Source: an uncultured Prevotellaceae bacterium (lineage in GTDB: Bacteria; Bacteroidota; Bacteroidia; Bacteroidales; Muribaculaceae). From it: 64,000 bases of DNA. The stretch covers positions 45,352 to 109,351 of the forward strand of contig ONIY01000006.1 of the NCBI GenBank assembly GCA_900318065.1. Direction: 5' to 3'. Shown in pieces: positions 1-45,548 of the stretch; the stretch's first letter is position 1, and the number at the start of each line of letters is the position of its first letter. Made by a program: the position numbers and the translations under genes. Under the pieces are notes generated by a model that was given only the letters and a program-made list of their open reading frames with translations, was not told the origin of the DNA and ran no database searches.

Positions 1-3000
1 GTGGAGGAGAAGAAGCGCGTGAAAGGCGCATGTGTGACCTTCGAGGTGAGCCAGGGCAAGTGGCAGACGAAGCAGTTTGTGGGTACCAGCCTGACCAGTT
101 GGGAGAGCGAGAGCAGCTGGGACGACTTCGGCGGTGGCGGCACGGTGAAGAGCGTGACGCTGAACGGTCAGAAGAAGACCCCCGACGCCCAAGGCAACAT
201 AGACCTGACGGTGGACGAGTTGACGGTGGATGCGAGCCTGGATGCCCAGAGCACGAACCCTGTGGAGAACCGCGCCGTTGCTGGCAAGTTCAACGAGATA
301 GAGAGTGCGACCCTGTTTGACAGCGACGTGGAGGAAGGCGACGACGGCACCCAGACGGTGACGCTGAAGAACAAGAGCGGTGCGGCCATTACCCAGTTCA
401 CGCTGGCAGCCGGCGGTGGCGGTGGCGGCGGCGACACCCAGGCGACGAAGATTGTGCTGGGCGCAAGCGTGAACCAGGGCATCATCAAAGAAGGCGGGAA
501 CTGCGTGCTGACGTGGAGCTATGACCATCAATATACCAGCGGCGATGATGCAGGCCAGACAACAGGGCAGAAGGCAACGGTGGAGATAAGGGTGCTTCGA
601 GGCTCCATCCTTGCCTACAGCGTCACGACGGAAGACGTGAGCAAAGGCACCTACACGCTGGATGTGAGCAAATACCTGCAGGTGGGCACGACCGACATCT
701 ACGTGAAGGCGACGACCACCGACCCGACTACGGGCAAGACACAGACGAAGCAGGCGTATGCGAACGTGAAGGTGGTGAACCTGAGCCTGCAGAGCAGTTA
801 CAGCCTGAGCAGCGGTCTGAGCACCGGCGGCTACGGCTCGACGGAAAGCGCGGTCATCCCCTACACCGTGCAGGGCACCGGCACGAAGGTCGTCACCCTG
901 TATGTGGACGGGAGCCAGTACGAGACTGCGACCGTGACCAGGAGCGGCGCGACTAACGGCAGTTTCACGATACCGATGAGCGGACTGACCATAGGCCGTC
1001 ACACGGTGCAGATGGTGGCCGAGATGGATGCCAGCGCCGACCTGACGCTGAGGAGCGAGAGCATCTACATGGACATCTTCAAGGCCGGCAGCAGTGCCCC
1101 GCTGATCGGCACGAAGCACACGTTCCAGGACGGACGCATCTTCACGACAGACCACCGCACCCCACGTCTGGCAGCCGGACAGTATGAGCAGCTGACCTTC
1201 GAGTATGCCGTGTATGACGCAGGCGTTACCCCTGCCCCGATGAGTGTGTGGCAGAACGGGGAGAAGGTGCAGGACGTGTCGGTTCCCCGTAGCACCCAGA
1301 CCTACGCCAACCGCTTCACGGAGCAGGGCGCACAGACCATGAAACTGGTGAGCGGCGCGACGGAATACCCGTTCTATATCGACGTGAGCAAGAGCAGCAT
1401 CGACGTGGAGGAAGCGACCCTTGACCTGCGGCTGAAGCTGAGCGCCGCCGGCAGGAGCAACGGCGAGAGCGACCCCGTGCACTGGGAGCACGGCGAGGTG
1501 AAGACCACCTTCGAGAACGTGGACTGGCAGACGAGCGGGTGGACCGGCGAGTCGCTGAAGCTGATGAACGGCGCGAAAGCCTACATCGACTTCAAGCCCT
1601 TCACGCAGGATGCCGCCACGACGGGCCGCACGTTTGAGGTGGAACTGAAGGTGAGCAACATCACGGACAAGGAGAGCGACGTGGTGAGTTGCCTGGACGG
1701 AGTGAAGGGCTTCCAGATCACGGCAGACAAGGCCATGATGTACACCGGCTCGACGAAGGAGGTGGAGGACGAGGACGGCAACAAGACCACCCAGCCCGTG
1801 GGCGTTGGCCGCCAGTACGGTCAGGATATGTGGGTGAAGATTGCTTTCGTGATTGGCAAGCGCTCAGAAGGGCGCCTGATGGAACTCTACGTGAACGGTA
1901 CGCGCTGCGCTGCCGACATCTACGGTGACAGCGACAACTTCATGCAGGACACGCCGAAGGGAATCACGCTGGACAGCACGGGTGCAGACGTGGAGGTGCG
2001 GACGGTGCATGTGTATGACCGTGCGCTGAGCGACGACGAGGAAATGGACAACCACATCGTGAACCGCCAGACGCTGGACGAGATGGCCGCCCTGTTTGAA
2101 GAGAACGACGTGCTGGGCGAGGACGGACGGAGCATCGACTTCCAGAAACTGCGTAACAAGGGCAAGGGCATCATGCTCGTGGTGCGCCAGGGCGGACTGG
2201 ACCCTGTGAACGCCGAGAACAACAAGAAGACCGACTTCCTTGCCGACGTGCACCTGTGGCTTCCGGACGGACGGTACATCTACCTGCACAACGTATATAT
2301 CAGAATCCAGGGCACGAGCTCGACGAAATACCCGACGAAGAACTACCGCATCTACTGCGCGAAGGGAGAGAATCCGGAGATGTATATCAACGGCGTGAAG
2401 CAGACGGAACTGAAGATCGCCCTGCGCGTGGGACAGAAGAAAGTGAAGATCCTTTGTGCCAAGGCTGACTACTCAGACTCGTCAATGGCTCAGAACACCG
2501 GCGGCGCGAAGCTGTGGAACAACCTGATGAAGTCGCTGGGGTTCCTGACCCCGCCTCAGCAGGTGGACAGCAACGTGAGGACAGCCGTGGACGGTTTTCC
2601 TATCGACGTGTTCTCGGCAGAGAGCCTGGAGGACACGCCGACCTACTACGGCCAGTACAACCTGAACCACGACAAGAGCGACTGGCAGGCTATCATCGGC
2701 ATGGAAGGCGTGGATGGTTTCACGCCGACAGAACCCATCGCCTTCGAGTTCCTGAACAACACGCAGCCGCTGTGCCTGTTCCAGGGACAGAGCGACCTGG
2801 ACGCGCAGGCGGCAGCGGAGTTTGACAACGCCCTGGAGTTCAACTACCCGGCGAAGACGGGTGGCGAGGATACGAAGTGGGCCAATGCGCCGACGGCGAA
2901 GAAAAACGCCTTCAAGCGTCTGTGGGGCTGGATTAGGGACTGTGTGCCGGCAGGCGCGACACCGAGCGACGTGAGCACGTTTGTCTCGAGCGAGTTCAAA

Positions 3001-6000
3001 ACGGAGGTGAGCCAGTACCTGAACCTGAACTTCCTGCTGTGCTGGTGGCTGTTCACGGATTACTTCGCCAACGTGGACCAGCGGGCGAAGAACATGATAG
3101 CCGCGACGTGGGATGCGCTGGTGTGGTATCTGCTGTATTACGACGGCGACACCCAGATTGGCGACCGCAACGACTCGATGCTGGCATACCTGTACAACGT
3201 GACGCGAGAGACGTGGGACAGCGACAAGAACAAATACGCCTTTGAGGGCCACGACTCGTGGCTGTGGTGCCTGGTTCTCGCCAACTTCAAGGATGAGATC
3301 AAGGCGATGGCCACGACGATGAGAGAGAAACTGACCGAGGAACTGGTGAACCAGATGTTCGACGAGGAGCAGCAGGGGAACTGGTGCGGCAGAGCCTACA
3401 ACAAGAGCGGCGAAATCAAGTACATCAAGCCCCAGACCGAGGGTGTGCAGACGAAGACCGGCATCGTGAAGTACCCGTATATCTACGCCCTGAAGGGTGA
3501 CAAGCAGGCATTCAGGCACTGGTTCATCCAGAACCGCTTCGCCCTGCTCGACGCGAAGTATGAGACGGGCAACTATCTCTCTGACAACATAGACATGTAT
3601 ATGAGCCGCCAGGCGACGGAGGCGGCCAACACCATCGTGGTGAAGGCGAGCGAACTCTACTACTTCGGCTACGGCACGAACAACGCCCCCCACCTGCAGC
3701 CGAGCGAGGAGGCCAAGAAAGGCGGCACGGTGACGCTGGTGTTCAGCAACGCCTTCACGGTGAACGACCCGATAAGAATCTACGGCGCGAGCCGCATTGC
3801 CGAACTGAACATGGAGGGAGCGGCGAACAACCTGACGGGTGACCTGAACCTGAACAAGTGCAAGGTGCTGCGTGTGCTTGACCTGCAGACGAACGGGAGC
3901 GGCAGCACCGGCTGGTGTCTGGTACTGGACCAGTGCCGCCAGTTGACCGACGTGAACCTGTACGGTCAGGCGAGTGCGAAGACCGGCACGCTGAGCAGCA
4001 CGGAACTGGACTTCAGGAACCAGACGCGACTGAAGACGCTGGACGCTCGCGGCGTGAACGTCCAAGCGGTGCTGTTTGCTCAGGGCTGTCCTCTGACGAC
4101 CGCCAAACTGGGCAGCAACATCCAGACGCTGAGACTGGAGTATCTGCCCGACCTGAAGGAGAGCGGACTGACGCTGCAGAACTGGCGGACGGTGAAGACG
4201 CTGCGCTATGCCGGTTGCCCGAACATCAGCTGGCAGTCGATGATCAGCAAGTGCGTGAACGTGGAACGTGTGCGCATCGAGGGCATCAGCGTGGAAGACG
4301 ACGGAACCCTGCTGAACCGCTACAAGAACCTGAAGGGCGTGGACGCGAGCGGCAACGCCGTGGACTACTGCGCCCTTGTGGGCACGGTGCAGCTGACGAG
4401 CTACATGGACGACGAGGACTATGCCGCCATGCAAGCGAGATACCCGGAGCTGACGATCCTGCAGCCCGACTACTCGATGCTGGAGTTTGACGACACGGTG
4501 AGCGACGACGCCAACGTGAGCAACCTGGACAACGGGACGGGCTACAAGTTCGGCACGGACTATGTGGCGAGCGGCCATGTGCTGGCACTGCTGAAGAGGC
4601 GCTACCGCTGCCTGGCGAAGGTGACGAAGAAGCCGACCTCGCGGAACATCACCCATGCAGGCGTGGCGACGACGCAGAACAATGGGGATGGCGAGGCGAC
4701 CATCTATCCGCTCCATGCAGAGAACTCGAACTACTACGCCGATGCCCAGGAACTGAAGAACTGCTCGGCGGCTAAGCTGGACAGCACGGAGGGCGACTGG
4801 ATGATGTATGAGCCCCACCGCTGGTTCAAGGGTGTGAACGACTACCTGAACGGCAAGCACTATGCTTGCTGGAGCAGCAACGAGCGTATGCCGAAGAAGC
4901 CGGACTGCGACATTGTGACCCTGGACGAGATCAAGGATGCCGGTGACTACCGGAATAACTACAAGATCATGAGCGGCAAGGAGACGCTGGCGCAGAGCTA
5001 CACGGCAGACAACAGCTACGCCGTCTGCAGGGTGGGCGTGAGCGGCTACAAGAAAGTGCGCTTCCCAAGTGTGCCAGGCACGAACCTTGTGTGTGCCGTG
5101 TTCACGGACTCAGCTGGTCTCGTAGTGGGCACGGTAGTGGTGAGCACGCTCGGCTCGAAGTTCGTTGCCGGCATGTACCTGATAGCCGACGTTCCGGCAA
5201 ATGCCGTTGCCCTGAACTTCTCGATTCTGAAGACTGCGGAGTTTGACATGGTGGTGCTGAGCAACAGCACGAAGATAGAGGACATGGAACCCGACTGGGT
5301 GGAGGTGGAGCCCTACCTGTGCGCCGTAGTGGGCAGCAGCGTGGTCGGGGACAAACTGAGAGCCTGTATCACCGGCGGCTCGACAGCAGCGAGCATGACG
5401 TGGACTGACTTCCACTTCTACTCTGCCCAAAGAGGTATGCAGCAGATAGACGGCCTGATGCACAACGACATCGCCAACCTGTTCTTTGCCAAGTACGGGC
5501 GGCGAGACAGCCAGATGCAGTGCGGCGCGGGACAAAACTCAAACACCAGAACCACCGGCGGCACTGCGAAGATAGGCATGCAGGACACGGTGAACACGAA
5601 CGGCACGACCGTGGGCGGCGTGGAAGGCAACGGTAAGGCCTTCTACAAGGAGACGAACACGGACGGCGAGACGGTGTTCTACCAGTTGAACAACACGAAC
5701 TGCCTCGGCTACGAGGACATCTACGGCCATAAATATGATATGATGGACTGCGTGGACGTTCCGAACGACAGCGGTAACGGCGGCAAGTGGCGATACCTGA
5801 TGCCTGACGGAACATACCGACGGGTAAAGGGCGTGGAGGCCACCGGCTGGATCAACGGCGTGACACACGGAAAATATATGGACGTGGTGCCAGCAGCCGC
5901 TTCGGGCAGCAGCACGACATACTATTGTGACTACTATTACTACAGTGGTTCCACAGGCCGTGTGGTCTATCGCGGCAACAACCACGCGTATGCGAATGGC

Positions 6001-6135
6001 GGTGTGTCGTGCGCGTATGCGTTTAGCGATGCGTCGAGCTCGCATGCGTATGTCGGGTCGCGTCTGGCCTTCCGCGGCAAAATCGTGGTGGCGGAGAGCG
6101 TGGCCGCGTACAAGGCGGCAGTCGAGGTAGCGTAA
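1..6135 (+). CDS. DGR target: giant phage tail-fibre/adhesin-like protein (5' end may lie outside the window)
   Basis: The frame is open from base 1 and begins with GTG, so the true start may be upstream. Reading the 2,044 residues in order: a Gly-rich linker near 138-145; Ig-like strands to about 490; a LamG-like segment about 494-690 ending in VHVYDRALSDDE; a CotH-kinase-like region about 768-1060 (KADYSDSS, NVDQRAKN, YDGDTQIGDRNDS); leucine-rich-repeat-like stretches about 1265-1480; and a C-terminal domain with AKYGRRDSQMQCGAG and GSRLAFRG, as in C-type-lectin-fold DGR targets. Residues about 1985-2023 are the variable repeat and match a template repeat 3' of the gene. Inferred role: a phage receptor-binding protein whose tip is diversified. 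Domain names other than the lectin/VR call rest on motif reading alone. The GC-rich codon use matches the following phage genes and differs from the AT-rich genes after 10.5 kb. Confidence 0.85.
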   Translation: MEEKKRVKGACVTFEVSQGKWQTKQFVGTSLTSWESESSWDDFGGGGTVKSVTLNGQKKTPDAQGNIDLTVDELTVDASLDAQSTNPVENRAVAGKFNEIESATLFDSDVEEGDDGTQTVTLKNKSGAAITQFTLAAGGGGGGGDTQATKIVLGASVNQGIIKEGGNCVLTWSYDHQYTSGDDAGQTTGQKATVEIRVLRGSILAYSVTTEDVSKGTYTLDVSKYLQVGTTDIYVKATTTDPTTGKTQTKQAYANVKVVNLSLQSSYSLSSGLSTGGYGSTESAVIPYTVQGTGTKVVTLYVDGSQYETATVTRSGATNGSFTIPMSGLTIGRHTVQMVAEMDASADLTLRSESIYMDIFKAGSSAPLIGTKHTFQDGRIFTTDHRTPRLAAGQYEQLTFEYAVYDAGVTPAPMSVWQNGEKVQDVSVPRSTQTYANRFTEQGAQTMKLVSGATEYPFYIDVSKSSIDVEEATLDLRLKLSAAGRSNGESDPVHWEHGEVKTTFENVDWQTSGWTGESLKLMNGAKAYIDFKPFTQDAATTGRTFEVELKVSNITDKESDVVSCLDGVKGFQITADKAMMYTGSTKEVEDEDGNKTTQPVGVGRQYGQDMWVKIAFVIGKRSEGRLMELYVNGTRCAADIYGDSDNFMQDTPKGITLDSTGADVEVRTVHVYDRALSDDEEMDNHIVNRQTLDEMAALFEENDVLGEDGRSIDFQKLRNKGKGIMLVVRQGGLDPVNAENNKKTDFLADVHLWLPDGRYIYLHNVYIRIQGTSSTKYPTKNYRIYCAKGENPEMYINGVKQTELKIALRVGQKKVKILCAKADYSDSSMAQNTGGAKLWNNLMKSLGFLTPPQQVDSNVRTAVDGFPIDVFSAESLEDTPTYYGQYNLNHDKSDWQAIIGMEGVDGFTPTEPIAFEFLNNTQPLCLFQGQSDLDAQAAAEFDNALEFNYPAKTGGEDTKWANAPTAKKNAFKRLWGWIRDCVPAGATPSDVSTFVSSEFKTEVSQYLNLNFLLCWWLFTDYFANVDQRAKNMIAATWDALVWYLLYYDGDTQIGDRNDSMLAYLYNVTRETWDSDKNKYAFEGHDSWLWCLVLANFKDEIKAMATTMREKLTEELVNQMFDEEQQGNWCGRAYNKSGEIKYIKPQTEGVQTKTGIVKYPYIYALKGDKQAFRHWFIQNRFALLDAKYETGNYLSDNIDMYMSRQATEAANTIVVKASELYYFGYGTNNAPHLQPSEEAKKGGTVTLVFSNAFTVNDPIRIYGASRIAELNMEGAANNLTGDLNLNKCKVLRVLDLQTNGSGSTGWCLVLDQCRQLTDVNLYGQASAKTGTLSSTELDFRNQTRLKTLDARGVNVQAVLFAQGCPLTTAKLGSNIQTLRLEYLPDLKESGLTLQNWRTVKTLRYAGCPNISWQSMISKCVNVERVRIEGISVEDDGTLLNRYKNLKGVDASGNAVDYCALVGTVQLTSYMDDEDYAAMQARYPELTILQPDYSMLEFDDTVSDDANVSNLDNGTGYKFGTDYVASGHVLALLKRRYRCLAKVTKKPTSRNITHAGVATTQNNGDGEATIYPLHAENSNYYADAQELKNCSAAKLDSTEGDWMMYEPHRWFKGVNDYLNGKHYACWSSNERMPKKPDCDIVTLDEIKDAGDYRNNYKIMSGKETLAQSYTADNSYAVCRVGVSGYKKVRFPSVPGTNLVCAVFTDSAGLVVGTVVVSTLGSKFVAGMYLIADVPANAVALNFSILKTAEFDMVVLSNSTKIEDMEPDWVEVEPYLCAVVGSSVVGDKLRACITGGSTAASMTWTDFHFYSAQRGMQQIDGLMHNDIANLFFAKYGRRDSQMQCGAGQNSNTRTTGGTAKIGMQDTVNTNGTTVGGVEGNGKAFYKETNTDGETVFYQLNNTNCLGYEDIYGHKYDMMDCVDVPNDSGNGGKWRYLMPDGTYRRVKGVEATGWINGVTHGKYMDVVPAAASGSSTTYYCDYYYYSGSTGRVVYRGNNHAYANGGVSCAYAFSDASSSHAYVGSRLAFRGKIVVAESVAAYKAAVEVA
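5955..6067 (+). repeat. DGR variable repeat (VR)
   Basis: These 113 bases align without gaps to the TR at 6321-6433 (offset 366). There are ten substitutions: positions 5983, 5989, 6011, 6016, 6022, 6023, 6026, 6038, 6043 and 6049. Every one corresponds to an adenine in the TR. They change nine codons (1995, 1997, 2004, 2006, 2008, 2009, 2013, 2015, 2017), giving His, Tyr, Cys, Tyr, Phe, Ser, Ser, His and Tyr where TR encodes Asn (Tyr at 2004). The last 17 bases are identical, GC-rich, and would serve as the initiation site of mutagenic homing. Confidence 0.97.
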
Positions 6136-6240
6136 GCGGAAAAGCGAAAACGGGAGCGAAGCGACAAAGCGTAAAGCGTGATGTCTGAGGTACGAAGACA
6201 TCAAGAAATACGGGCGTAAGCCCGTCGAAGTTGGTGGAAT

Positions 6241-6273
6241 TTTCGGTAGCCTCGCTGAAAATGAGTACCTTTG
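6241..6273 (+). promoter_or_regulatory. Promoter for the TR RNA/reverse transcriptase unit
   Basis: TTTC at 6241, CTCGCTGAA at 6251 and TACCTTTG at 6266-6273 give a match to the Bacteroidales -7 consensus TAnnTTTG, with a -33-like TTTC 21 bases upstream. It sits after the target-gene stop (6135) and before the TR (6321), so it would drive template RNA separately from the target gene. The same three blocks with the same spacing recur before the methylase gene (8912-8944). Confidence 0.7.
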
Positions 6274-6280
6274 CAGTCGG

Positions 6281-6674
6281 AAAGCTGACAATATGCACTT
6301 TTCAGGGTGGAAGCTCCCATAGGCCGTGTGGTCTATCGCGGCAACAACAACGCGAATGCGAATGGCGGTGTGTCGTACGCGAATGCGAATAACGATGCGT
6401 CGAACTCGAATGCGAATGTCGGGTCGCGTCTGGACAACAACCAAAGAAACTGAAATCGGCGTACAGCGACGGGGACGTGTCCCCAGTGCGGTGCCGAGGG
6501 AGCCGAGCCCCACCAACAGCGGCTTAACCTCTATAAAGAGGACATGACACCGCTCATGTGCCGGAAAGGTGAAAAACGGAGTGACGGGTAGAGTTTGGTA
6601 GGTCGGTAACGGCTCGAAGAACTTGGACCCACGGAAGGAAGGCTTCGGCCTTCGCAAACAACAATTTTTGAACT
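6281..6674 (+). ncRNA. DGR template RNA: leader, TR and spacer
   Basis: The span from the predicted transcription start to the reverse transcriptase start has no credible gene. It holds the TR (6321-6433) and a spacer of about 240 bases. A hairpin at 6638-6653 (GAAGGC, loop TTCG, GCCTTC) lies 21 bases before the reverse transcriptase start codon. In characterised DGRs the RNA 3' of TR binds the reverse transcriptase and primes synthesis; that role here is inferred from position. The RNA ends are not visible in the sequence. Confidence 0.7.
6321..6433 (+). repeat. DGR template repeat (TR)
   Basis: This is the donor copy of the VR. In the VR reading frame it carries eleven AAY (Asn) codons, several alternating with Ala (GCG) codons. 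That is typical of DGR templates: adenine-specific mutation of AAY reaches many residues and never creates a stop. Outside the adenines it is identical to VR over 113 bases. The first mismatch upstream is T6320 against C5954. Confidence 0.97.
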
Positions 6675-7979
6675 ATGCGCAGAGAAGGTTACATCATTGA
6701 GGAAATCGTTGAGTACGGCAATATGTCGGACTCCTTCGATACGGTGCTCCGAGGCACGAAGCGGAAACGCTCACGCCAGGGGCGCTGGCTCCTTGCGCAT
6801 AGGGACGAGGTGATACGGGACCTGACGGAGCGTATAGCGTCCGGCACGTTCACCGTGAAGGACTACAGGGAGCGCGAGATCGTGGAAGGCGGCAAGCTGC
6901 GCAAGATACAGGTGCTCTCCATGTATGACCGCATCGGCGTACATGCCGTGATGAATGTCGTGGACAGGCACATGCGCAAGCGCTTTATCCGCACCACCTC
7001 GGCCAGTATCAAGGAACGCGGGATGCACGACCTGCTGGCGTATATCCGGCGCGACCTGGAGGAAGATCCTGACGGAACGCGGTACTGCTACAAGTTCGAC
7101 ATCTCGAAGTTCTACGACAACGTGCAGCCGGACTTTGTGATGTACTGCGTGAAGCGGATTTTCAAGGACAAAAGGCTCATTGCCCTGCTGGACGGCTTTG
7201 TCCGCATGATGCCGTCGGGCATCAGCATCGGGCTGCGTAGTTCGCAGGGGCTGGGCAATCTCTTATTGTCTGTATTTTTAGACCACTATTTGAAGGACAG
7301 GTACGGCGTGCGTCATTTCTACCGCTATTGTGATGACGGCGTGGTACTCGGAAAATCGAAAGCGGAATTGTGGCTCGTGCGTGACGTGGTACACGAACTG
7401 GTGGAGCATATAGACTTGGAGGTGAAAGCCAACGAGCGCGTGTTCCCGGTAAGTGAGGGCATCGACTTCCTGGGCTATGTGATTTACAGTTCCAAGCATG
7501 TGGAACTGCGCAAGCGCATCAAGCAGAAGATGGCCCGCAAGATGCACGAGGTCAGGAGTAGGAAAAGAAGGCGTGAATTGATAGCGAGCTTCTATGGCAT
7601 GGCAAAGCACGCCAATTGTAACATGTTGTTTAATAAATTAACAGGCAAACAGATGAAATCATTCAAGGATTTGAAAGTCGCTTACAAACCGGAGGACGGC
7701 AAGAAGCGCTTCTCTGGTGCGGTGGTAAGCATCAGGGAATTGGTGAACCTGCCCATCGTAGTCAAGGACTTCGAGACAGGCATCAAGACAGAGCAGGGCG
7801 AGGACCGCTGCATCGTGGCCATCGAGCAGAACGGCGAGCCCAAGAAGTTTTTCACCAACAGCGAGGAGATGAAGAATATCCTCGCCCAGATTAGAGAAAT
7901 GCCCGACGGGTTCCCCTTCGAGACCACCATCAAGACGGAGACCTTCGGCAAAGGTAGAACCAAGTACGTTTTCACTTAG
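6675..7979 (+). CDS. DGR reverse transcriptase with extra C-terminal domain
   Basis: A 434-residue reverse transcriptase that copies TR RNA into mutagenised cDNA for VR. Visible motifs: FDISKFYDN (141-149, first catalytic Asp), GLRSSQ (186-191, the GxxxSQ box characteristic of DGR enzymes) and YCDD (218-221, catalytic Asp pair). A thumb-like basic stretch follows (about 280-330). From about 340 to 434 there is an additional domain (SIRELVNLPIVV, ETGIKTEQGE, KKFFTNSEEMK) not needed for a minimal DGR enzyme; it looks beta-rich and may bind nucleic acid, but I cannot name it. No separate Avd gene lies between target, TR and this gene. The next gene starts 5 bases after its stop. Confidence 0.95.
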   Translation: MRREGYIIEEIVEYGNMSDSFDTVLRGTKRKRSRQGRWLLAHRDEVIRDLTERIASGTFTVKDYREREIVEGGKLRKIQVLSMYDRIGVHAVMNVVDRHMRKRFIRTTSASIKERGMHDLLAYIRRDLEEDPDGTRYCYKFDISKFYDNVQPDFVMYCVKRIFKDKRLIALLDGFVRMMPSGISIGLRSSQGLGNLLLSVFLDHYLKDRYGVRHFYRYCDDGVVLGKSKAELWLVRDVVHELVEHIDLEVKANERVFPVSEGIDFLGYVIYSSKHVELRKRIKQKMARKMHEVRSRKRRRELIASFYGMAKHANCNMLFNKLTGKQMKSFKDLKVAYKPEDGKKRFSGAVVSIRELVNLPIVVKDFETGIKTEQGEDRCIVAIEQNGEPKKFFTNSEEMKNILAQIREMPDGFPFETTIKTETFGKGRTKYVFT

Positions 7980-7984
7980 AGACA

Positions 7985-8470
7985 ATGCAAAGGACAGAAG
8001 GAACCGCCGGTGTAAAACTGATTGAATGCGTCAGCCCGGCAAGAAACAAGTGGCGCGTCCGCTGGGACGTGCAGGAACATGAGGACGGATCTGCCGACTA
8101 CATGGAGGCGGAGTTCGCCCACAAGCCGACTGACGAGGAAATCAAGGCCGCTGTCATTGGCTGGTACAATCAGCAGACCGACCAGACCATCCTGTCCGGC
8201 TTCGAGTATGAGGGCGACCCTGTGTGGCTGTCCTCTGAGAACCAGTTCAACTACAAGGCAGCCTACGACCTCGCCGTACAGTCGAATGGTACGACGCTAC
8301 CTGTGAAGTTCAAGTTCGGTACAGACGAGCAGCCGAAGTATCGGGTGTTTGAAAGACTGGAGGAACTGGCTGACTTCTACACGAAGGCCATGCGTTTTAT
8401 CCAGGACACGCTGGATGCTGGATGGCAGAAGAAAGATGCGTTCAACCCGGAAGACTATCGGGATGAATAA
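7985..8470 (+). CDS. Unrecognised 161-residue protein following the DGR reverse transcriptase
   Basis: Begins 5 bases after the reverse transcriptase stop, so it is very likely co-transcribed with it. The protein is acidic and soluble with no signal peptide. It has an N-terminal half rich in Trp/Arg (WRVRWDV), a middle section with SENQFNYKAAYDLA, and a helical C-terminal part (ERLEELADFYTKAMRFIQDTL). I do not recognise a family. The position would suit a DGR accessory factor or a small phage structural or assembly protein. It is not obviously Avd: it is longer and lacks the compact basic four-helix pattern. Confidence 0.7.
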   Translation: MQRTEGTAGVKLIECVSPARNKWRVRWDVQEHEDGSADYMEAEFAHKPTDEEIKAAVIGWYNQQTDQTILSGFEYEGDPVWLSSENQFNYKAAYDLAVQSNGTTLPVKFKFGTDEQPKYRVFERLEELADFYTKAMRFIQDTLDAGWQKKDAFNPEDYRDE

Positions 8471-8640
8471 ACTCTGAAGGAAGCCCTTGGGGGTGGGCAT
8501 AAAAAAGCCCCCAGCCTGTTAATATAGACGCCAATCATTTATTAACAACGCACCCATACAGGAGACAGCTGGGGGCCTATGCCCTTCACTCCCCTGTATG
8601 GGTTTTTATATGCGAAATAAATGATTGGCGGTACAAAGGT
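8471..8640 (+). terminator. Nested inverted repeats: terminator-like structured intergenic region
   Basis: Three inverted repeats share this gap. The outer 15-bp pair is perfect (8529-8543 with 8616-8630). The inner 11-bp pair (8552-8562 with 8593-8603) is followed by TTTTT, as in an intrinsic terminator. A 9-bp pair, GCCCCCAGC at 8507-8515 with its complement at 8568-8576, crosses the outer stem; GGGCAT/ATGCCC (8495-8500, 8579-8584) would extend it. The stems cannot all form as simple nested hairpins, so alternative folds or a pseudoknot are possible. Confidence 0.6.
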
Positions 8641-8656
8641 ATAAAAAAATAATGAA

Positions 8657-8899
8657 ATGACGCTGTTTGAGATATTAAATTTCAATAAAGAGCTTATTGA
8701 CAGGCTTATTTCGGTCGGTTTTAAGCCCGACGACTGCCGTTACGTGGCACTTTACGCAGATTATATGAAGATGCACGGACGTGGCGAGAAAGTGACGTAT
8801 ATCGTGACTCTGCTCTCTGACAAGTACAAGGTGAGCGAGCGCAAGGTGTACAACATCATCAAGAAGTTTGAGACTAACTGCACGGCTGGTGCAGTGTGA
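8657..8899 (+). CDS. Small Mor-like helix-turn-helix regulator
   Basis: An 80-residue protein. Its second half (VALYADYMKMHGRGEKV, then TYIVTLLSDKYKVSERKVYN) resembles the C-terminal helix-turn-helix of the Mor/C phage activator family: a tyrosine-rich linker helix, then a tight HTH with SERKVYNII as recognition helix. Mor proteins activate phage middle or late genes. The conserved promoter just downstream (8912-8944), also found before the TR, could be its target; that is inference. The family call is from motif shape only. Confidence 0.6.
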   Translation: MTLFEILNFNKELIDRLISVGFKPDDCRYVALYADYMKMHGRGEKVTYIVTLLSDKYKVSERKVYNIIKKFETNCTAGAV

Positions 8900-8911
8900 T
8901 TTGGCTTGAAC

Positions 8912-8944
8912 TTTCCCTTGTCTCGCTGAATGACCGTACCTTTG
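8912..8944 (+). promoter_or_regulatory. Promoter of the methylase gene, same module as the TR promoter
   Basis: TTTC at 8912, CTCGCTGAA at 8922-8930 and TACCTTTG at 8937-8944, at the same spacing as 6241-6273. TACCTTTG matches TAnnTTTG. The gene start at 8967 lies 22 bases downstream. The 9-base CTCGCTGAA block is not part of the general promoter and may be an activator site. Confidence 0.7.
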
Positions 8945-8966
8945 CGGTGATAAAATTAGCGAGACA

Positions 8967-9797
8967 ATGAGAAAGCAATATCTATCGGCACCGCTTCCTT
9001 TCCAGGGACAGAAGCGTATGTTTGCCAAAGAGTACATTAATGTGCTCCAGCAGTTCCCTGACGGTACGACATTCGTGGACCTGTTCGGCGGCTCTGGCTT
9101 ATTATCACACATAGCCAAGTGCCAGAAGCCGCATTCCAAGGTAGTATATAACGACTTTGACGGCTATCGCCAGCGGCTTGAAGCCCTGCCTGTCACCAAT
9201 GCGCTGCTGGCAGAACTGAGGGAGATTGTGGATGTGCCACGCCACAAGCCCATATTGGGGGAGACAAAGGAACGTGTGCTGTCCTGCGTCCGCAAATACC
9301 TACACGACTACGGCTATATCGACTATATCACGCTGTCCTCGTCGATTATGTTCTCTATGAAGTACGCCACCGAGTTTTCGGATCTGGAGAAGGAAACACT
9401 ATATAATAATATAAGGACGACCGACTATGAACCGTGCTTGGACTACCTCGACGGGCTGACCATTACCTCCTGTGACTACAGGGAGGTGTTTGAGCAGTAC
9501 AAGGACGTGCCAGGTGTGGTGTTCCTGGTTGACCCTCCGTATTTGAGCACGGACAGCAAGACATACAAGATGTACTGGAAATTGTCAGACTACCTCGATG
9601 TGCTGACGGTGCTTGCCGGACATCGCTTTATCTATTTCACCTCTAACAAGTCTTCTATCGTTGAACTGTGCGACTGGATGGGTAAGCATCCGGAACTGGG
9701 CAACCCGTTTGAGAACTGCCAGCGTCGTGAGTTCAATGCCCACATGAATTACAGCGCGTCCTACACGGACATCATGCTATATACGAAAGCCGCTTAA
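8967..9797 (+). CDS. DNA N6-adenine methyltransferase, D12 class
   Basis: A 276-residue enzyme that transfers a methyl group from S-adenosylmethionine to adenine N6 in DNA. The order of motifs is that of the D12 (Dam/MboIIA-like) class: PFQGQK near the N-terminus (11-16), FVDLFGGSG (36-44, cofactor binding), YNDFD (61-65) and the catalytic DPPY at 189-192. Length is normal for the class. No restriction endonuclease gene is beside it, so it is probably an orphan phage methylase protecting DNA from host restriction. The next gene is 25 bases downstream on the same strand. Confidence 0.9.
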   Translation: MRKQYLSAPLPFQGQKRMFAKEYINVLQQFPDGTTFVDLFGGSGLLSHIAKCQKPHSKVVYNDFDGYRQRLEALPVTNALLAELREIVDVPRHKPILGETKERVLSCVRKYLHDYGYIDYITLSSSIMFSMKYATEFSDLEKETLYNNIRTTDYEPCLDYLDGLTITSCDYREVFEQYKDVPGVVFLVDPPYLSTDSKTYKMYWKLSDYLDVLTVLAGHRFIYFTSNKSSIVELCDWMGKHPELGNPFENCQRREFNAHMNYSASYTDIMLYTKAA

Positions 9798-9822
9798 ACA
9801 ACATTCTAATACCGTTTGAACG

Positions 9823-10461
9823 ATGAACAAATACTACCAGATACTGGGCAAGGTTCTGGAGAAAGGAAAGACCCAGACGAACAAGAAAGGAAATATCCGC
9901 TACCTGCTCAATGAGCAGTTGTCATTGACCCCTGCCGACCTGCTCGATATATTCGAGAGCCACGGCATAGCCAGGAAGAAACTGAAGAATGAGTTGCAAC
10001 TTTTTATGCAGGGTGAGCGGAACGTGGAACGATACCGCGACGTGGGCATCAACTGGTGGGACTATTGCGGTTCTGTCCTGGTGAACAGTTACCCGACCTA
10101 CTTTGAGAAACTGCCTCCACTCATTGCGAAGATAAACCGCGAGAAGCGCAACAGCAAGAACTATGTGCTGTTCCTCGGTGAGACTGGTGCAGAGAGCAAC
10201 CAAGCCCCATGCCTGAGCCTCGTGCAGTTCCAGATAGACGACGGGGAACTGGTACTGTCAGCATACCAGCGAAGCAGCGACGCGAACCTTGGCTTGCCGG
10301 CTGATATTTACCATCTCTACCTCATGGCTCGGCAGATAGATTTGCCTCTGAAAAGCATAACGCTGAACCTTGGCAACGTACACATATACGAGAACAACCA
10401 GGAACGCACACGCCAGCTGCTTGATGGCGACGAGAATGTGAAGTTTGATTTGAACGTTTGA
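9823..10461 (+). CDS. Thymidylate-synthase-fold enzyme, probably dCMP hydroxymethylase-like
   Basis: A 212-residue protein with clear thymidylate synthase landmarks in the right spacing: nucleophile Cys130 (APC), 20 residues later Arg150 in YQRSSD, then GLPADIY, and GNVHIY at 184-189. Asp161 stands where thymidylate synthase has Asn (E. coli Asn177), the residue that selects dUMP. Asp at this site is the known feature of dCMP-specific members such as T4 dCMP hydroxymethylase. The protein is about 50 residues shorter than bacterial thymidylate synthase, and the His after the catalytic Cys is Leu. Lying beside a DNA methylase, it probably supplies a modified pyrimidine for phage DNA. Hydroxymethylation versus methylation cannot be told from sequence. 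Confidence 0.75.
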   Translation: MNKYYQILGKVLEKGKTQTNKKGNIRYLLNEQLSLTPADLLDIFESHGIARKKLKNELQLFMQGERNVERYRDVGINWWDYCGSVLVNSYPTYFEKLPPLIAKINREKRNSKNYVLFLGETGAESNQAPCLSLVQFQIDDGELVLSAYQRSSDANLGLPADIYHLYLMARQIDLPLKSITLNLGNVHIYENNQERTRQLLDGDENVKFDLNV

Positions 10462-10479
10462 AACAACATGGAGAAAAAG

Positions 10480-10513
10480 AAAACGCCCCAGAGAAATCTG
10501 AGGCGTTTTTTCG
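10480..10513 (+). terminator. Intrinsic terminator closing the phage operon
   Basis: AACGCC and CAGA pair with TCTG and GGCGTT across a short GAAA-containing loop, followed by a run of six T. It starts about 19 bases after the stop of the thymidylate-synthase-like gene and is the last recognisable phage-side signal before the change to AT-rich DNA. Confidence 0.8.
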
Positions 10514-10538
10514 TTGTGGGGAAGGAACCCGAAAAAGT

Positions 10539-10599
10539 AACATTTCGTTTTGCGAAGCGGAACGCGTCGTTTAATTTTTCAGGAACATTTCGTTTTGCG
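10539..10599. repeat. 16-bp direct repeat at the phage/element junction
   Basis: AACATTTCGTTTTGCG occurs at 10539-10554 and again at 10584-10599, 45 bases apart. The second copy lies in the last codons of the truncated serine recombinase. Base composition changes here from GC-rich phage genes to AT-rich accessory genes. A recombination core is a reasonable reading, but no partner copy can be checked inside the window. Confidence 0.6.
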
Positions 10600-11026
10600 G
10601 ATTATACCTCTCTATATTTCCCATCTCAGCCAAAACGGTAATAAGGATGGATGCAATTGGGTTGACTTCTCCATTAGGTTGCAGCGAGTATAAGCCAAGG
10701 TTCTGAATGTAGACTGAAACCTTAGCCTCATGTAGCTGCTCAAGGGATTTCAGTACTTGCAGCGTCGATCTCCCTAAGCGGCTCAGTTCAGATAGTAGGA
10801 GGTAATCGACATGGTTCTTGGTGCAGTAGTCAAGGCACTCGGTCAGAACTTGTCGCTCCTCATTTTTCTTCGCCCCTGAAATATGCTCTTCATAGATTTT
10901 GACAATTTCCATATCCTGGGCTTCGCTGAATTTTTGAAGGTCTGTGATTTGTCGTGATGTGTCCTGCCTGTCATTTTCAGAACTCACCCTGGCATAAATC
11001 ACGGCCCTCTTGTTTTTTGCGTTCAT
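10571..11026 (-). pseudogene. Serine recombinase (resolvase/invertase) lacking the DNA-binding domain
   Basis: The start is placed at the ATG at 11026 (MNAKNKRAVIYARVSS), because the upstream in-frame residues do not look like the family. The 151 residues hold the resolvase catalytic domain: YARVSSENDRQDTSRQ with the nucleophilic Ser, LLSELSRLGRS and ITVLAEMGNIER. Family members continue with a long helix and a helix-turn-helix, to about 190-200 residues. Here the match stops after NIER, and eleven unrelated residues (YNPQNEMFLKN) follow inside the 16-bp repeat region. It therefore looks truncated by the recombination that joined the two mobile regions, and is probably not functional alone. 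Confidence 0.75.
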
Positions 11027-11143
11027 AATAATCTTTGAATTAAAAGAATATATTGAAAGGGTGTATCCATTAGCCGTTACAGACTTTTTTGAATACACCC
11101 ATGAAATGAACACACTAATGGCTCATCGGCAGCACTAGTGTTA

Positions 11144-11497
11144 CTATCCTGTGACAATACCGTATTCCTGACAAATCCTTTCGCTGTAATTGTCAGTTTT
11201 CTCCACAGCATCATCTATCACAGAAATCAAGTCTCCAAGGAAGATGTGTTCTGTAGTTTTCACAATTCTCTCATTTTCGTCGATAAGTGAAACCTCGAAT
11301 AAATCTTCTCCTTCGTTATATGCCACCTGGGCATTTCCCTTGTGCTTAAACCCTTGCACATGAAACTTAACACCCAGATTTATCACATGTATTGAAGCCG
11401 GGTCTATTCCCCAGCTCCAAACAACAGGTAAATTGCTCTTGAAAATCTCAAAGATATACTCAGCTATTTTCAAGTTATAGTCGAAATCTCTGTCCAT
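11144..11497 (-). CDS. Unrecognised 117-residue protein
   Basis: Soluble, acidic, with no signal peptide or membrane segment. Visible text includes VVWSWGIDPASIHVINLG and GNAQVAYNEGEDLFEVSL, suggesting an alternating-strand core. It lies 5 bases downstream of the helix-turn-helix gene on the same strand and belongs to the run of small minus-strand genes of this element. I do not recognise a family. Confidence 0.65.
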   Translation of the reverse strand: MDRDFDYNLKIAEYIFEIFKSNLPVVWSWGIDPASIHVINLGVKFHVQGFKHKGNAQVAYNEGEDLFEVSLIDENERIVKTTEHIFLGDLISVIDDAVEKTDNYSERICQEYGIVTG

Positions 11498-11502
11498 AAT
11501 AG

Positions 11503-11805
11503 TTAATTGCCAATTTTGTTACGTTCAATTAATTCAATAATCTCACTACGTTTGAATTTTACTTTTCTGCCAATTTTATAGCATTTAATTATTCCTGCCT
11601 TTCTCCATTGATAAAGTGTACGGGTGGTTATCTGGAACATTTTTGACGCTTCATGATGGTCAATATACTCATCCTTACACAAAATCGGGTTTGTGGAAAA
11701 TAGATCTTGCAAATAAGTTTTTATCTCACGTAGTTCACTCTTAACCTCTTCTAAATCATCAGGTTTAATGATGATAAGTTGATTGGTGATGTCATCCATA
11801 GTCAT
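11503..11805 (-). CDS. Excisionase/MerR-type helix-turn-helix protein
   Basis: A 100-residue DNA-binding protein. Residues about 47-97 (YIDHHEASKMFQITTRTLYQ, then WRKAGIIKCYKIGRKVKFKR) form the winged helix-turn-helix common to Bacteroidales mobile elements and related to phage excisionases. The N-terminal half is a charged helix (KPDDLEEVKSELREIKTYLQ). The start overlaps the stop of the upstream 59-residue gene in an ATGA arrangement, so the two are translationally coupled. A role in excision or element gene control is inferred from family and from the integrase at the far end of this region. Confidence 0.85.
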   Translation of the reverse strand: MTMDDITNQLIIIKPDDLEEVKSELREIKTYLQDLFSTNPILCKDEYIDHHEASKMFQITTRTLYQWRKAGIIKCYKIGRKVKFKRSEIIELIERNKIGN

Positions 11806-11981
11806 TTCTTGTTAATGTCCTTGATTAACTTTCGATTAAGTGCGTTTAAGGCTTTATAAACTCGCTGGTATGCCTTCTCGTATTCGGTTCCCTGGAGTCT
11901 CAGCCCTGCACTTACCAAATCATTTCCAGCGTTAAACACATCTTTCTGTGCCCAACGCAATTCTTGTTCACTCAGTCTCAT
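11802..11981 (-). CDS. Small 59-residue helical protein
   Basis: An uninterrupted short reading frame beginning MRLSEQELRWAQKDVFNAG and ending LNALNRKLIKDINKK. It overlaps its neighbours on both sides by ATGA junctions: its start overlaps the stop of 11978-12199 and its stop overlaps the start of 11503-11805. That double coupling is the main evidence that it is real. It is predicted to be wholly alpha-helical and basic at the C-terminus. No family is recognised. Confidence 0.7.
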   Translation of the reverse strand: MRLSEQELRWAQKDVFNAGNDLVSAGLRLQGTEYEKAYQRVYKALNALNRKLIKDINKK

Positions 11982-12199
11982 CCTAGCACAATGTATTTAG
12001 TGTTAACATCTTCTTCGCTCACACCAAAAGGAAGGCCGTAGCTAATTTCTTCGCCTTTCAAGTGAGAGAAAAGGTAAAATAGCTCATGAAACGAATTGCC
12101 CTCGTCGTCGCCGGAGATTAAGATATACTTGTCTCCATTGCCTTTCGCTATCTCCTCCTTACATGCTTTAAGGAGCTGCTTTATAGTGATTGTCTCCAT
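11978..12199 (-). CDS. Unrecognised 73-residue acidic protein
   Basis: Starts METITIKQLLKACKEEIAKG and contains ISGDDEGNSFHELFYLF. Strongly acidic, soluble and small. It is the first of a coupled string of three (this gene, the 59-residue gene, the helix-turn-helix gene). No function can be assigned from sequence. Confidence 0.65.
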   Translation of the reverse strand: METITIKQLLKACKEEIAKGNGDKYILISGDDEGNSFHELFYLFSHLKGEEISYGLPFGVSEEDVNTKYIVLG

Positions 12200-12204
12200 A
12201 GTTG

Positions 12205-12456
12205 TTACATTAAATAGATTGTGTTGTTAATTACCGTCTTGTAAGTGCAGCCGTCCTCAGGGATTCGCACCTTCTTGAATACATACTGCCACCAATGGTC
12301 TTTTCTCAAAGGAGTCTGGTCCATTAGCATTTCAACGATTGATTTGTGAATTGGGAAGACATAGGTCAAAGCTCTACGTCGACTTCCATCACTGAGTTGT
12401 AGCCAGTACTTGATAGTCATGGCTTTCGTCTTTGCTTTAGTTTTTGTTCGTGCCAT
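12205..12456 (-). CDS. Unrecognised 83-residue basic protein
   Basis: The N-terminus is a Lys/Thr-rich tail (MARTKTKAKTKAMTIKYWLQ), followed by a compact region with DGSRRRALTYVFPIHKSIVE and the aromatic cluster DHWWQYVFKK. It lies 5 bases upstream of the next minus-strand gene. The positive tail could contact nucleic acid. No family is recognised. Confidence 0.6.
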   Translation of the reverse strand: MARTKTKAKTKAMTIKYWLQLSDGSRRRALTYVFPIHKSIVEMLMDQTPLRKDHWWQYVFKKVRIPEDGCTYKTVINNTIYLM

Positions 12457-12461
12457 AGTCG

Positions 12462-12617
12462 TTAAAGTTTTTGAGTCCTGATGAGCTCCAGCCTATCGAT
12501 CCCCCAGTACTCATGTTCAACTTCTTGTCTTGCTTCACTCTCTGTTCTAGCGTCGACCCAGATATTTGAACCATCTGGATCACCTGCTTGGTAGATTCTG
12601 AAATAAAATCTTGTCAT
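12462..12617 (-). CDS. Small 51-residue protein
   Basis: A short open frame, MTRFYFRIYQAGDPDG to LIRTQKL, filling most of the space between the peptidase gene and the 83-residue gene on the same strand and 5 bases from the latter. Alternating aromatic/charged residues (WVDARTESEARQEVEHEYWG) look like a real small protein rather than noise. Function unknown. Confidence 0.55.
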   Translation of the reverse strand: MTRFYFRIYQAGDPDGSNIWVDARTESEARQEVEHEYWGIDRLELIRTQKL

Positions 12618-12687
12618 GTTGATTACGTTTTATGCAGCAAGAGCCCCCATGTGATGATGAGAGCCCTTGTTGCTGGTTAATAAACTT

Positions 12688-13653
12688 CTATAGATAGTCT
12701 CGCGTTTTCCAATATTCGATATCATCCTTCACCATGTCATAGGTTTGCTCCAACTCCAGCTTATTGATAGATGGATAGTAGTCTTTGAACACGGCCCAGA
12801 TATCATTGAAACTTAGCTCGGGATGACTGGTAACTACTTCATAGATTTCATCATAGTAGTAGTCGTAGAAGCCATTATCATAAAAGGCGCTATAGCCACC
12901 CTTATACTCGTACTCGTGTGGATATACGTCAGTGCAGTTCTCAATTATATGCTCAACTAATGCCAAGCAATTGAGCAAATCGGCCTTTACTGTATATTCC
13001 TGGTCAGTGTGAGGTTGATAATAACCACATGACATATTACAGCAGCTTACGTTCAGTCCTTTCTCTTTCAAGGTCAAAACATCGGTCATCATTCCGCTTT
13101 CCTCTTGATAACCGAAGTCCTTGTATCCGGTTGCCTCGAGAAATTGGGTGGTACATAACTCGGTACAGCAAATATTTGTTATTATATCGCTGTTCCCACG
13201 TCTATCGCATTCTATCACGAACCTACAGTCATCGAAGAAATCCATTTTTGCTTTGCCACTGCCAACACAGCCGGTCTCCTCGCCAACGAAGAATGCAACT
13301 TTAAGCACGTTAAATTTCTCTAGGCATTTTAAGGCAATAAAAATTCCATTTTTATCGTCTGCCCCAAGTCCTTCAAATCGCTTGTTCTTAGCGCTCCAAC
13401 CAAAGATTATGTCGTTAGTTTCTATAGCTTGAAAATCTTTAGAATGTTGAGTCTGTACTTGGTCAATGTGAGCCACAATGCAGGGATAGGTTTCAGCACA
13501 ATCTTTCGTTACATAGATATTGCCCACCTTTTTATCCAGTTCAATCTTGCAGTCCTTCATGTGATGTTTTATGTACCACAATAGGAACTGGATCATCTTC
13601 TGTTCTTTACCCGACTTTGTATGTATCGAGTAGATTTTCTTTAGTAGTTTCAT
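12688..13653 (-). CDS. M20-family metallopeptidase (PepT-like)
   Basis: A 321-residue cytoplasmic zinc peptidase. The metal-binding sequence of the M20/M28/M42 group is visible in order: IVAHIDQV (first His and Asp), GLGADDKNG (bridging Asp), GEETGCVGSG (catalytic Glu pair), ECDRRG (Asp ligand) and a C-terminal QPHTDQEYT (last His). Family members cleave short peptides or N-acyl amino acids. No signal peptide. Such a gene is unusual cargo between small element genes. The start lies 3 bases after the stop of the upstream broken gene (13656-14815), so they were probably co-transcribed. Substrate cannot be inferred. Confidence 0.8.
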   Translation of the reverse strand: MKLLKKIYSIHTKSGKEQKMIQFLLWYIKHHMKDCKIELDKKVGNIYVTKDCAETYPCIVAHIDQVQTQHSKDFQAIETNDIIFGWSAKNKRFEGLGADDKNGIFIALKCLEKFNVLKVAFFVGEETGCVGSGKAKMDFFDDCRFVIECDRRGNSDIITNICCTELCTTQFLEATGYKDFGYQEESGMMTDVLTLKEKGLNVSCCNMSCGYYQPHTDQEYTVKADLLNCLALVEHIIENCTDVYPHEYEYKGGYSAFYDNGFYDYYYDEIYEVVTSHPELSFNDIWAVFKDYYPSINKLELEQTYDMVKDDIEYWKTRDYL

Positions 13654-26944: not shown

Positions 26945-27352
26945 TTATTCGTTTGAAAGTTTATTGTTTTCTTTCTTTTCTAGCATTTTATTAATCATTG
27001 AACGACGATAACCACTAATCATTTTGCCTATAGTAGAAGCATTTGATTTAAATTGATTAAATTCTTCTTGGCTTATATATCCAACTCTAAGTGCTATATC
27101 TAACTGACATATAACTTCGGCTAAAGAACCCAAGGCAATCTCATTAAAATGTATTTTTTCTTTTTCAGAGAACCTACTGGAGCCCTCGGCTATATTAGAA
27201 GGTACAGATATTGCCGCTCTTCTTATCTGAGAAGTCAACGAAAATCTCTCTCTTTCAGGGAAACGATTAAGCAATTTATAAATATCGGTCACAAAGTCCA
27301 TAGAGAACTGCCACATATCTAATTGCTCATGAGAGAAAAGCGCAAAATCCAT
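26945..27352 (-). CDS. Four-helix-bundle protein (S23/IVP family)
   Basis: A 135-residue protein of the family first found in intervening sequences of 23S rRNA genes and frequent as free-standing genes in Bacteroidetes. Diagnostic text: FSLTSQIRRAAISVPSNIAE, GSSRFSEKEKIHFNEIALGS, ICQLDIALRVGYIS. The fold is related to the DGR accessory protein Avd, but this gene is about 20 kb from the DGR in chromosomal DNA, so it is not assigned to it. Function unknown; probably nucleic-acid binding. Confidence 0.9.
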   Translation of the reverse strand: MDFALFSHEQLDMWQFSMDFVTDIYKLLNRFPERERFSLTSQIRRAAISVPSNIAEGSSRFSEKEKIHFNEIALGSLAEVICQLDIALRVGYISQEEFNQFKSNASTIGKMISGYRRSMINKMLEKKENNKLSNE

Positions 27353-45329: not shown

Positions 45330-45548
45330 GTTTATGGTTTATTGTTTATAGTTTATGGAAGACAGTGGCGAGATTAGGTGAGTGGGAAGAGGGAAGAGGG
45401 AAGAGGAAAGAGTTATCAACTACTCTACTACTCAACGGCTCAACTATTTCACTGAAAACTGACTACTGATTACTGATAACTGACTACTGATTACTGAAAA
45501 CTGATTACTGAAAACTGATTACTGAAAACTGACTACTGACTACTGACC
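45330..45548 (+). repeat. Composite heptamer arrays, including 14 units in exact register
   Basis: GTTTATG/GTTTATT/GTTTATA/GTTTATG, then GGAAGACAGTGGCGAGATTA, then GGGAAGA units, an octamer run, and finally ACTGAAA, ACTGACT, ACTGATT, ACTGATA and so on: 14 consecutive heptamers at 45451-45548 with ACTGA fixed and the last two bases variable. Confidence 0.95.

Follow-up and report, generated by a model that had tools for sequence, protein, structure and literature searches.

A hankyphage-like diversity-generating retroelement in a Mu-like prophage of an uncultured Prevotellaceae bacterium, with an accessory domain fused to its reverse transcriptase

Introduction

Near the start of the window, by which we mean the whole stretch of 64,000 nucleotides analysed here (positions 45,352 to 109,351 of contig ONIY01000006.1, assembly GCA_900318065.1), two nearly identical repeats, one inside the end of a long tail-fibre-like gene and one behind it, precede a gene for a reverse transcriptase (RT). 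The initial annotation took this arrangement to be a complete diversity-generating retroelement (DGR), which raises the question of whether the parts belong together, and of what stands in the place of Avd, a helper protein that most known DGRs encode and that is described as indispensable for retrohoming (PMC10053308). The same source names HRDC and MSL as other known DGR accessory proteins, and mentions one suggested DGR-associated protein that has no Pfam or CDD entry; the words accessory, Avd and HRDC were not found in PMC8144416.

Results

The two repeats form a direct repeat of 117 bases at an offset of 366, which contains a 113-base core. Its first copy is the variable repeat (VR, 5955-6067, forward strand), recognised by repeat comparison and by its variation in relatives, and its second is the template repeat (TR, 6321-6433, forward strand), which holds 26 adenines. 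Ten mismatches separate the two cores, every one of them at a TR adenine (P = 8.6e-8 for all ten falling on A by chance), and they change nine amino acids, at codons 1995, 1997, 2004, 2006, 2008, 2009, 2013, 2015 and 2017 in window numbering; an eleventh mismatch of the longer repeat, at 5954 (T in TR), lies outside the core. The repeat comparison agrees exactly with what had been claimed for the lengths, the ten adenine differences and the nine replacements, and an in-frame count of AAY codons in TR likewise returns the eleven that had been proposed.

The adjacent enzyme (6675-7979, forward strand, 434 aa) is identified as a DGR RT by homology and by profile and fold matches, and both boxes ascribed to it are present, GxxxSQ as GLRSSQ at residues 186-191 and YxDD as YCDD at residues 218-221. 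Its best PDB profile match is the DGR reverse transcriptase 8ub7 (E 1e-36), which is also its top Foldseek match, and it shares 29% identity over 334 aligned columns with bRT of phage BPP-1 (E 4.7e-22; bRT 3-319 covered). The RT is 100% identical on two further contigs (L089 and L090), named Bacteroidales and Prevotellaceae.

Between TR and the RT gene lies a match to the RT-3 structured RNA of Rfam (RF03068; 6454-6631, forward strand, 128.4 bits, E 1.6e-30), in the place where BPP-1 has the Phage_DGR RNA (RF03022). RT-3 occupies this position in 21 of 22 relatives scanned, the exception being L078, where it is not found at gathering score. The minimum free energy of the spacer (6434-6674) taken alone is not better than that of shuffled sequences (z -1.24), so the claim of a structured RNA rests on the Rfam model. 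Our literature search found no paper linking RT-3 to DGRs; the RT-n RNAs reportedly come from work by Weinberg in 2017.

VR lies at the 3' end of the target gene (1-6135, forward strand), which has a tail-fibre-like character, a CotH/LamG/LRR-like middle, a variable C-terminus and matches to phrog_14959, phrog_24896 and phrog_5302. The gene is truncated by the edge of the window; its frame runs on upstream for 747 bases to an ATG at L086:4605, so the full protein is about 2293 aa long and residue numbers rise by 249. That it encodes a tail-fibre-like protein is borne out by its position after a tape measure and another tail gene, and by the 'tail protein' match to phrog_5302 at residues 1784-2024. 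The LamG-, CotH- and LRR-like parts attributed to it are recovered in its homologues, 14 of which were scanned (CotH in 7, best E 9.4e-9; Laminin_G_3 in 1, E 1.9e-8; LRR_EndoS in 1, E 0.0021), but are weak in the window protein itself, where CotH stays under the cut-off (E=0.16) and a domain-family scan returned no family at E<=0.1. Because related phages have such parts, this scaffold is not peculiar to the window target.

The variable domain may adopt a C-type lectin fold, a view that draws on homology to the target of Hankyphage p00, in which a C-type lectin domain has been described (PMC6199706), and on a profile match of the target C-terminus to the target of another DGR (L173; hhalign 97.5%, E 5.5e-12). 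Searches of the C-terminal domain against PDB, Pfam, NCBIfam and Mtd gave no significant match, and an AF2 model of the last 311 aa, built from an alignment of the window with 25 of 26 loci, p00 omitted, had a pLDDT of 42, too low for use. A hairpin 111 bases 3' of VR was considered as a counterpart of the BPP-1 post-VR stem-loop and rejected, as among 20 loci compared the same hairpin occurs only in the window, L003 and L015, with a similar one in L021 and L023.

Variation among relatives follows the template. In a comparison of four distinct sequences only (the window, L003, L004 and L005), VR is variable at 19 of 26 TR-A columns against 3 of 87 others, while TR is nearly constant, with 0-2 changes, which is close to the pattern that the initial annotation had predicted for related strains. 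Two of the three non-A changes in VR mirror L003's own TR, which points to transfer from TR to VR. The 1 kb of target upstream of VR is also 22-23% different in L003-L005, so it is only the A bias that singles VR out. Among RT relatives more widely, 74 distinct local VR/TR pairs have changes at 757 of 1905 A and 38 of 6121 non-A positions, counts obtained with a pair finder that favours A mismatches; in 59 of these pairs all changes fall on A, and in 15 they do not. The finder returned no local pair at 69 of 145 usable loci; of these, 14 were followed up, and in 7 no VR was found anywhere on the sequence record. Seven hankyphage-like phages (G003, G004, G007, G008, G011, G013 and G014) have a TR of the window's family and an RT with the fused domain described below; unlike in the window, their VR lies about 26 kb from TR and RT and in the opposite orientation, and 74 of the 79 mismatches in these remote pairs are at A. 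At one locus that has no local VR (L038), TR and RT follow terminase-, portal- and F-like genes, named by eye.

The prophage that carries the cassette near its right end measures about 41 kb. It is recognised as Mu-like by a transposase (phrog_310), Portal_Mu, Phage_Mu_F and the tape measure, and is inserted inside a serine recombinase gene whose halves flank it. Downstream of the RT follow a DUF4376 protein of 161 aa that adjoins it (7985-8470), a small ORF (8657-8899) assigned to phrog_17790 by Pfam/PHROG-type family searches, a D12 class N6-adenine DNA methyltransferase (8967-9797) and a thymidylate synthase-like gene (9823-10461), all on the forward strand, the last two in the prophage right arm. 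The right end of the prophage is placed at 10590-10613 (no strand assigned), similarity to relatives ending at about 10606-10613; an inverted copy of this end was sought in L084 and none was found.

Hankyphage p00 (BK010646, PMC6199706) shares this layout: a tape measure, a tail gene, a target with C-terminal VR, then TR, RT, two small ORFs, and thymidylate synthase and methyltransferase genes, the last two in swapped order between the two phages. Its RT is 79% identical to that of the window and its DUF4376 homologue 70%, and it likewise has the RT-3 RNA, an RT-fused C-terminal domain and a Mu-like transposase and portal (for p00, PMC6199706). A megablast of p00 against the first 12 kb only of the window covered 16% at 75.6% identity; the hankyphage genus threshold given in PMC12135933 is >70% intergenomic similarity. 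The same source reports that the DGR of Bacteroides thetaiotaomicron hankyphages is active in culture. BPP-1 (AY029185) is a more distant likeness, with an RT related over nearly all of bRT, a phage tail target, A-specific TR/VR differences (reported in PMC6199706) and an Rfam RNA of another family between TR and RT.

The main differences from BPP-1 concern the helper. BPP-1 encodes Avd (bbp7) between mtd and TR, and none was found in the window: the bAvd model PF22296, with which BPP-1 Avd itself scores 123 bits, matched none of six proteins of the DGR region, phmmer with BPP-1 Avd matched none of 160 ORFs in window positions 1-13000, and the best bAvd score in the host genome, 29.7 bits against a cut-off of 40, lies outside the prophage. 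VR, TR and RT are all present, and 'complete' therefore needs a qualifier, as Avd was not found. The RT in turn, unlike the 328-aa RT of BPP-1, carries an extra C-terminal domain of about 110 residues (7644-7976, forward strand), a member of phrog_19665. In one model it is beta3-alpha-beta2, an order of strands and helix that would make it OB-like. Foldseek gave no separate match for it among the best 50 matches listed per search, and PDB and Pfam searches gave weak, unconvincing matches only (best 0.05 and 0.013).

A family model finds the domain in 12 of 393 genomes of the same bacterial order (an earlier search, A4, had found it in 3 of 198), and in each of the 12 it either adjoins a DGR-like RT or forms part of the same protein. 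None of 32 RTs has both phrog_19665 and Avd within 2 kb. The carriers form one RT clade (support 98/94), in which L198 and L208 also sit with no domain detected, and the domain tracks this clade beyond the hankyphages. In DGRs of the same order at L173/L182, L174/L181 and L180, with an RT and accessory domain related to those of the window, the accessory protein is an ORF of its own between VR and TR, the place of Avd in BPP-1 (113 aa in L173 and 119 aa in L174 from ATG; 150 aa stop to stop in L180). Rfam RT-17 precedes the RT at the L173/L182 locus (L199), whereas the other two stand-alone loci (L205 and L206) have no Rfam RNA before the RT at gathering score; the latter holds for 5 of 8 stand-alone-domain loci. 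An ORF of LoVEphage was a candidate for a clean separate domain protein and was not counted as one, because part of an RT lies in the same ORF.

Discussion

We are highly confident that the cassette is a DGR of the hankyphage-like kind, carried by a transposable, Mu-like prophage, that would rewrite the VR of a tail-fibre-like gene at TR adenines, as homology to bRT, VR variation at TR-A positions and the gene order of p00 all indicate; it is a further example of an already known type. The two copies, 366 bases apart, might also be an ordinary tandem duplication that has drifted beside an unrelated RT. The A bias refutes this reading, to which we give practically no credence: ten of ten changes fall on A, 59 of 74 local pairs in relatives have no exception, and the same bias recurs between copies some 26 kb apart. 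A single TR/VR pair cannot date its last event, and the element could be a fossil, once active and now inactive here, with VR a record of past retrohoming. This strikes us as improbable: the parts look intact (an open RT with YxDD and GxxxSQ, TR, RT-3 RNA and an open target), and relatives whose RT is about 99% identical in DNA have different VRs. We consider the DGR to be probably active now. TR and the RT-3 RNA behind it would be transcribed, the RT would make an error-prone cDNA of TR, misreading template adenines, and by retrohoming this cDNA would take the place of VR in the 3'-terminal part of the target gene. The C-terminal domain could in this way have as many as eleven Asn (AAY) codons, and a few more that contain A, re-drawn, and the new tip would presumably change which host surface the phage binds, allowing host switching.

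As to the helper of the RT, we lean towards its fused C-terminal domain, which would bind template RNA or cDNA and so fill the role of Avd in BPP-1. The DUF4376 protein is a rival for this role, as it is encoded at the RT or directly behind it in 25 records of hankyphage-like phages, 3 of which are distant, and in G249, and a small ORF next to the RT has been compared with Avd for its similar mass and isoelectric point, a size argument in its favour (PMC6199706). We regard it as a doubtful candidate: DUF4376 has no bAvd match, while BPP-1 Avd readily does, and it is found in 3 of 247 genomes, the window and G249 with a fused RT, and G176, whose 2.6-kb locus has no RT and holds genes that look tail-related by eye. 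In contrast, phrog_19665 follows its RT clade beyond the hankyphages.

On balance, then, we favour phrog_19665 as a second DGR helper, unrelated to Avd: an OB-like nucleic-acid binder that marks one RT clade of the bacterial order, sits either in Avd's place between VR and TR or behind the RT, became joined to the RT in a single event in the lineage of the hankyphages, and works with template RNAs of its own, RT-3 and RT-17. A 2018 survey by Wu may describe the same helper. It may also be the suggested DGR-associated protein mentioned in PMC10053308.

The cassette extends hankyphage-like DGRs to one more prophage, of a gut-phage lineage in which no Avd is found by sequence and an RT-fused domain stands instead. 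If the domain does replace Avd, the hankyphage, whose DGR is reported to be active in culture, would offer a direct test of Avd's task, and a role as DGR RNAs would become likely for RT-3 and RT-17.

A hankyphage-type DGR in a Mu-like prophage

The diversity-generating retroelement (DGR) proposed for this window in the initial annotation is genuine and belongs to the hankyphage type, a known type that is new to this phage. As had been described, its variable repeat (VR, 5955-6067) and template repeat (TR, 6321-6433) show ten mismatches, all at TR adenines (P = 8.6e-8 for ten randomly placed mismatches all falling on the 26 A of 113 bases), giving nine residue changes, and the TR holds eleven AAY codons. 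The target protein had been put at 2044 aa; its frame extends upstream past the window edge to an ATG at L086:4605, on the same contig, so that its length is really about 2293 aa. The 434-aa enzyme (6675-7979, +) is a reverse transcriptase (RT; RVT_1, 1.3e-13; phrog_1423, 1.4e-111) that shares 29% identity with bRT of Bordetella phage BPP-1 across 334 aligned columns (E 4.7e-22). The best match of an RT profile built from the window and 27 relatives is structure 8ub7 (1e-36, positions 2-319), titled DGR ribonucleoprotein reverse transcriptase, which is also the top fold match of the AF2 model (pLDDT 79.8). In the RTs of relatives L057, L058 and L068 the YxDD box is YCDN in alignment A2, with Asn replacing the second Asp; in L057 (record G008) 14/15 mismatches of the remote VR are still at A.

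The prophage, in a draft genome of 2.99 Mb, is Mu-like, with left-side genes for a transposase (phrog_310), an S24 peptidase-type protein, terminase, Portal_Mu, Phage_Mu_F, major head, tape measure and a tail protein; the window (C29:45352-109351) starts within a late structural gene. Similarity to the related loci L003, L005, L090 and L091 ceases at about 10606, the right end. It is followed by a serine recombinase fragment, the N-terminal half (10571-11113, minus; phrog_125 'DNA invertase'), and from a matching C-terminal piece, its fit judged by eye, at L084:14552-14779 (minus), left of the window, we infer a left end near C29:14780 and a length of about 41 kb. The recombinase gene appears to have been split by the prophage, with halves on both flanks. 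The terminase, portal and F genes (L085:4935-9815, minus) oppose the direction of the head, tail and DGR genes, whereas in relative L038 the TR-RT module follows a block of terminase-, portal- and F-like genes (named by eye against those of this prophage).

A structured RNA between TR and RT

Between TR and RT lies an Rfam RT-3 RNA (6454-6631, 128.4 bits), also present in 12/13 and 9/9 relatives scanned, Hankyphage (BK010646) among them; L078 has none at gathering score. In BPP-1 this spot is occupied instead by the Phage_DGR RNA, and passages of PMC12875486 describe that spacer as folding, recruiting bRT-Avd and priming cDNA; by analogy, RT-3 may fold, recruit the RT and prime cDNA likewise. 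An Rfam scan of 19 further loci found RT-3 in all three with a fused accessory domain (L195-L197), RT-17 directly before the RT in three of eight with a stand-alone domain (L199, L204, L207), and no Rfam RNA at gathering score in the other 13.

Natural variation of the VR

Two relatives (L002, L089) have VR and TR identical to the window's and add no information. Three others (L003-L005) differ from it at 12-15 of 1305 RT bases, 0-2 TR bases and 12-18 of 113 VR bases; across the four, VR columns vary at 19/26 TR-A and 3/87 other positions, and at two of those three L003's own TR has changed too. The kilobase upstream of VR is also 22-23% different in these relatives, which complicates a simple story. 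From IMG/VR and GTDB came 160 RT loci, of which 145 were usable; these yielded 74 distinct local VR/TR pairs and 2 duplicates, the other 69 giving none. Changed positions were 757/1905 at A and 38/6121 at non-A, a ratio biased upward by a finder that penalises non-A mismatches; 59 of the 74 pairs were all-A, and A was substituted by T (364), G (313) or C (80). In L044 and L048 VR is seemingly six bases shorter than TR, an indel besides the substitutions. In L055 the TR-like copy by the RT (7733-7791) matches the window TR at its two ends only, as though the middle had been deleted, while VR (7122-7234) is full length.

Remote VRs

We followed up fourteen records that carry a TR in the locus with no adjacent VR. 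Six of them have a second TR-like copy 25-26 kb off on the opposite strand, with 69/73 mismatches at TR-A (G014 is cut by the record end, and the G003 register was shifted one base for the final count); seven have no VR anywhere on the record and may be mere fragments. Three remote VRs that we read in frame fall within ORFs 1484 to 2326 aa long, with SRLAFRG at their ends. The remaining one of the fourteen, the 58-kb viral record G011 (loci L072 and L077), holds two hankyphage-like RTs, two TRs and one VR. This VR differs from the TR of the adjacent TR-RT at 19/110 positions, just 6 at A, and from the other RT's TR, 26 kb off on the opposite strand, at 6/111, 5 at A, so that, on sequence grounds, the distant cassette rather than the adjacent one appears to write it. 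It looks as though a single target had been contested by two cassettes.

An accessory domain, possibly in place of Avd

We found no match to Avd, the usual DGR helper protein, among the 160 ORFs of window 1-13000, and none of the six DGR-region proteins matches PF22296, which does match BPP-1 Avd. The strongest bAvd match in the genome scores 29.7 bits, below the cut-off of 40, and lies outside the prophage at 26999-27301 (minus), in a 135-aa ORF (L192:1447-1854) that is probably a common four-helix-bundle host protein. In PMC6199706 a small ORF next to the RT is compared with Avd on the basis of size and charge, and in passages of PMC12135933 the hankyphage map marks an Avd, the gene left unnamed. 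The obvious candidate is the 161-aa DUF4376 protein directly after the RT (7985-8470, +). DUF4376 occurs in 25 phage records (22 at 60-80% identity, 3 distant) and in 3/247 genomes, once in a 2.6-kb locus beside tail-like genes with no RT.

RT residues ~324-434 have no counterpart in bRT and match phrog_19665 (3.3e-21), a family of unknown function; in the AF2 model their order is beta-beta-beta-alpha-beta-beta, which suggests an OB-like domain. The family was found (E<=1e-4) in 12 of 393 genomes of the window's order, taken as Bacteroidales, and in all 12 a DGR-like RT carries it or adjoins it: four have it fused, this genome among them, three have a stand-alone protein placed between VR and TR, and five have one behind the RT. 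Six of these loci, which reach only ~1.5 kb from the match, have local VR/TR pairs. Around 32 RTs (E<=1e-35 to profile A3, in 29 of the 393 genomes), phrog_19665 lies within 2 kb of 12, Avd (PF22296, E<=1e-6) of 4, both of none and neither of 16, counts to be read knowing that A3 contains the domain and favours fused members, stand-alone cases gaining nothing from it. In a 41-row tree of RT cores only, one 26-row group (support 98/94) includes 22 rows labelled with phrog_19665; a looser search also matched L223 (1e-10) and, less clearly, L202 (2.4e-4); L198 and L208 have it by neither search. These searches did not find it in BPP-1 or in any of the 14 other tree rows of the order. The fused form is a single branch (14 rows, 100/99), in a tree where some rows were included because already known as fused.

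Judged from sequence, three features of this family of DGRs may be new: an RT that lacks Avd and carries a dedicated accessory domain, the link of RT-3 and RT-17 RNAs to DGRs, and the remote-VR layout.
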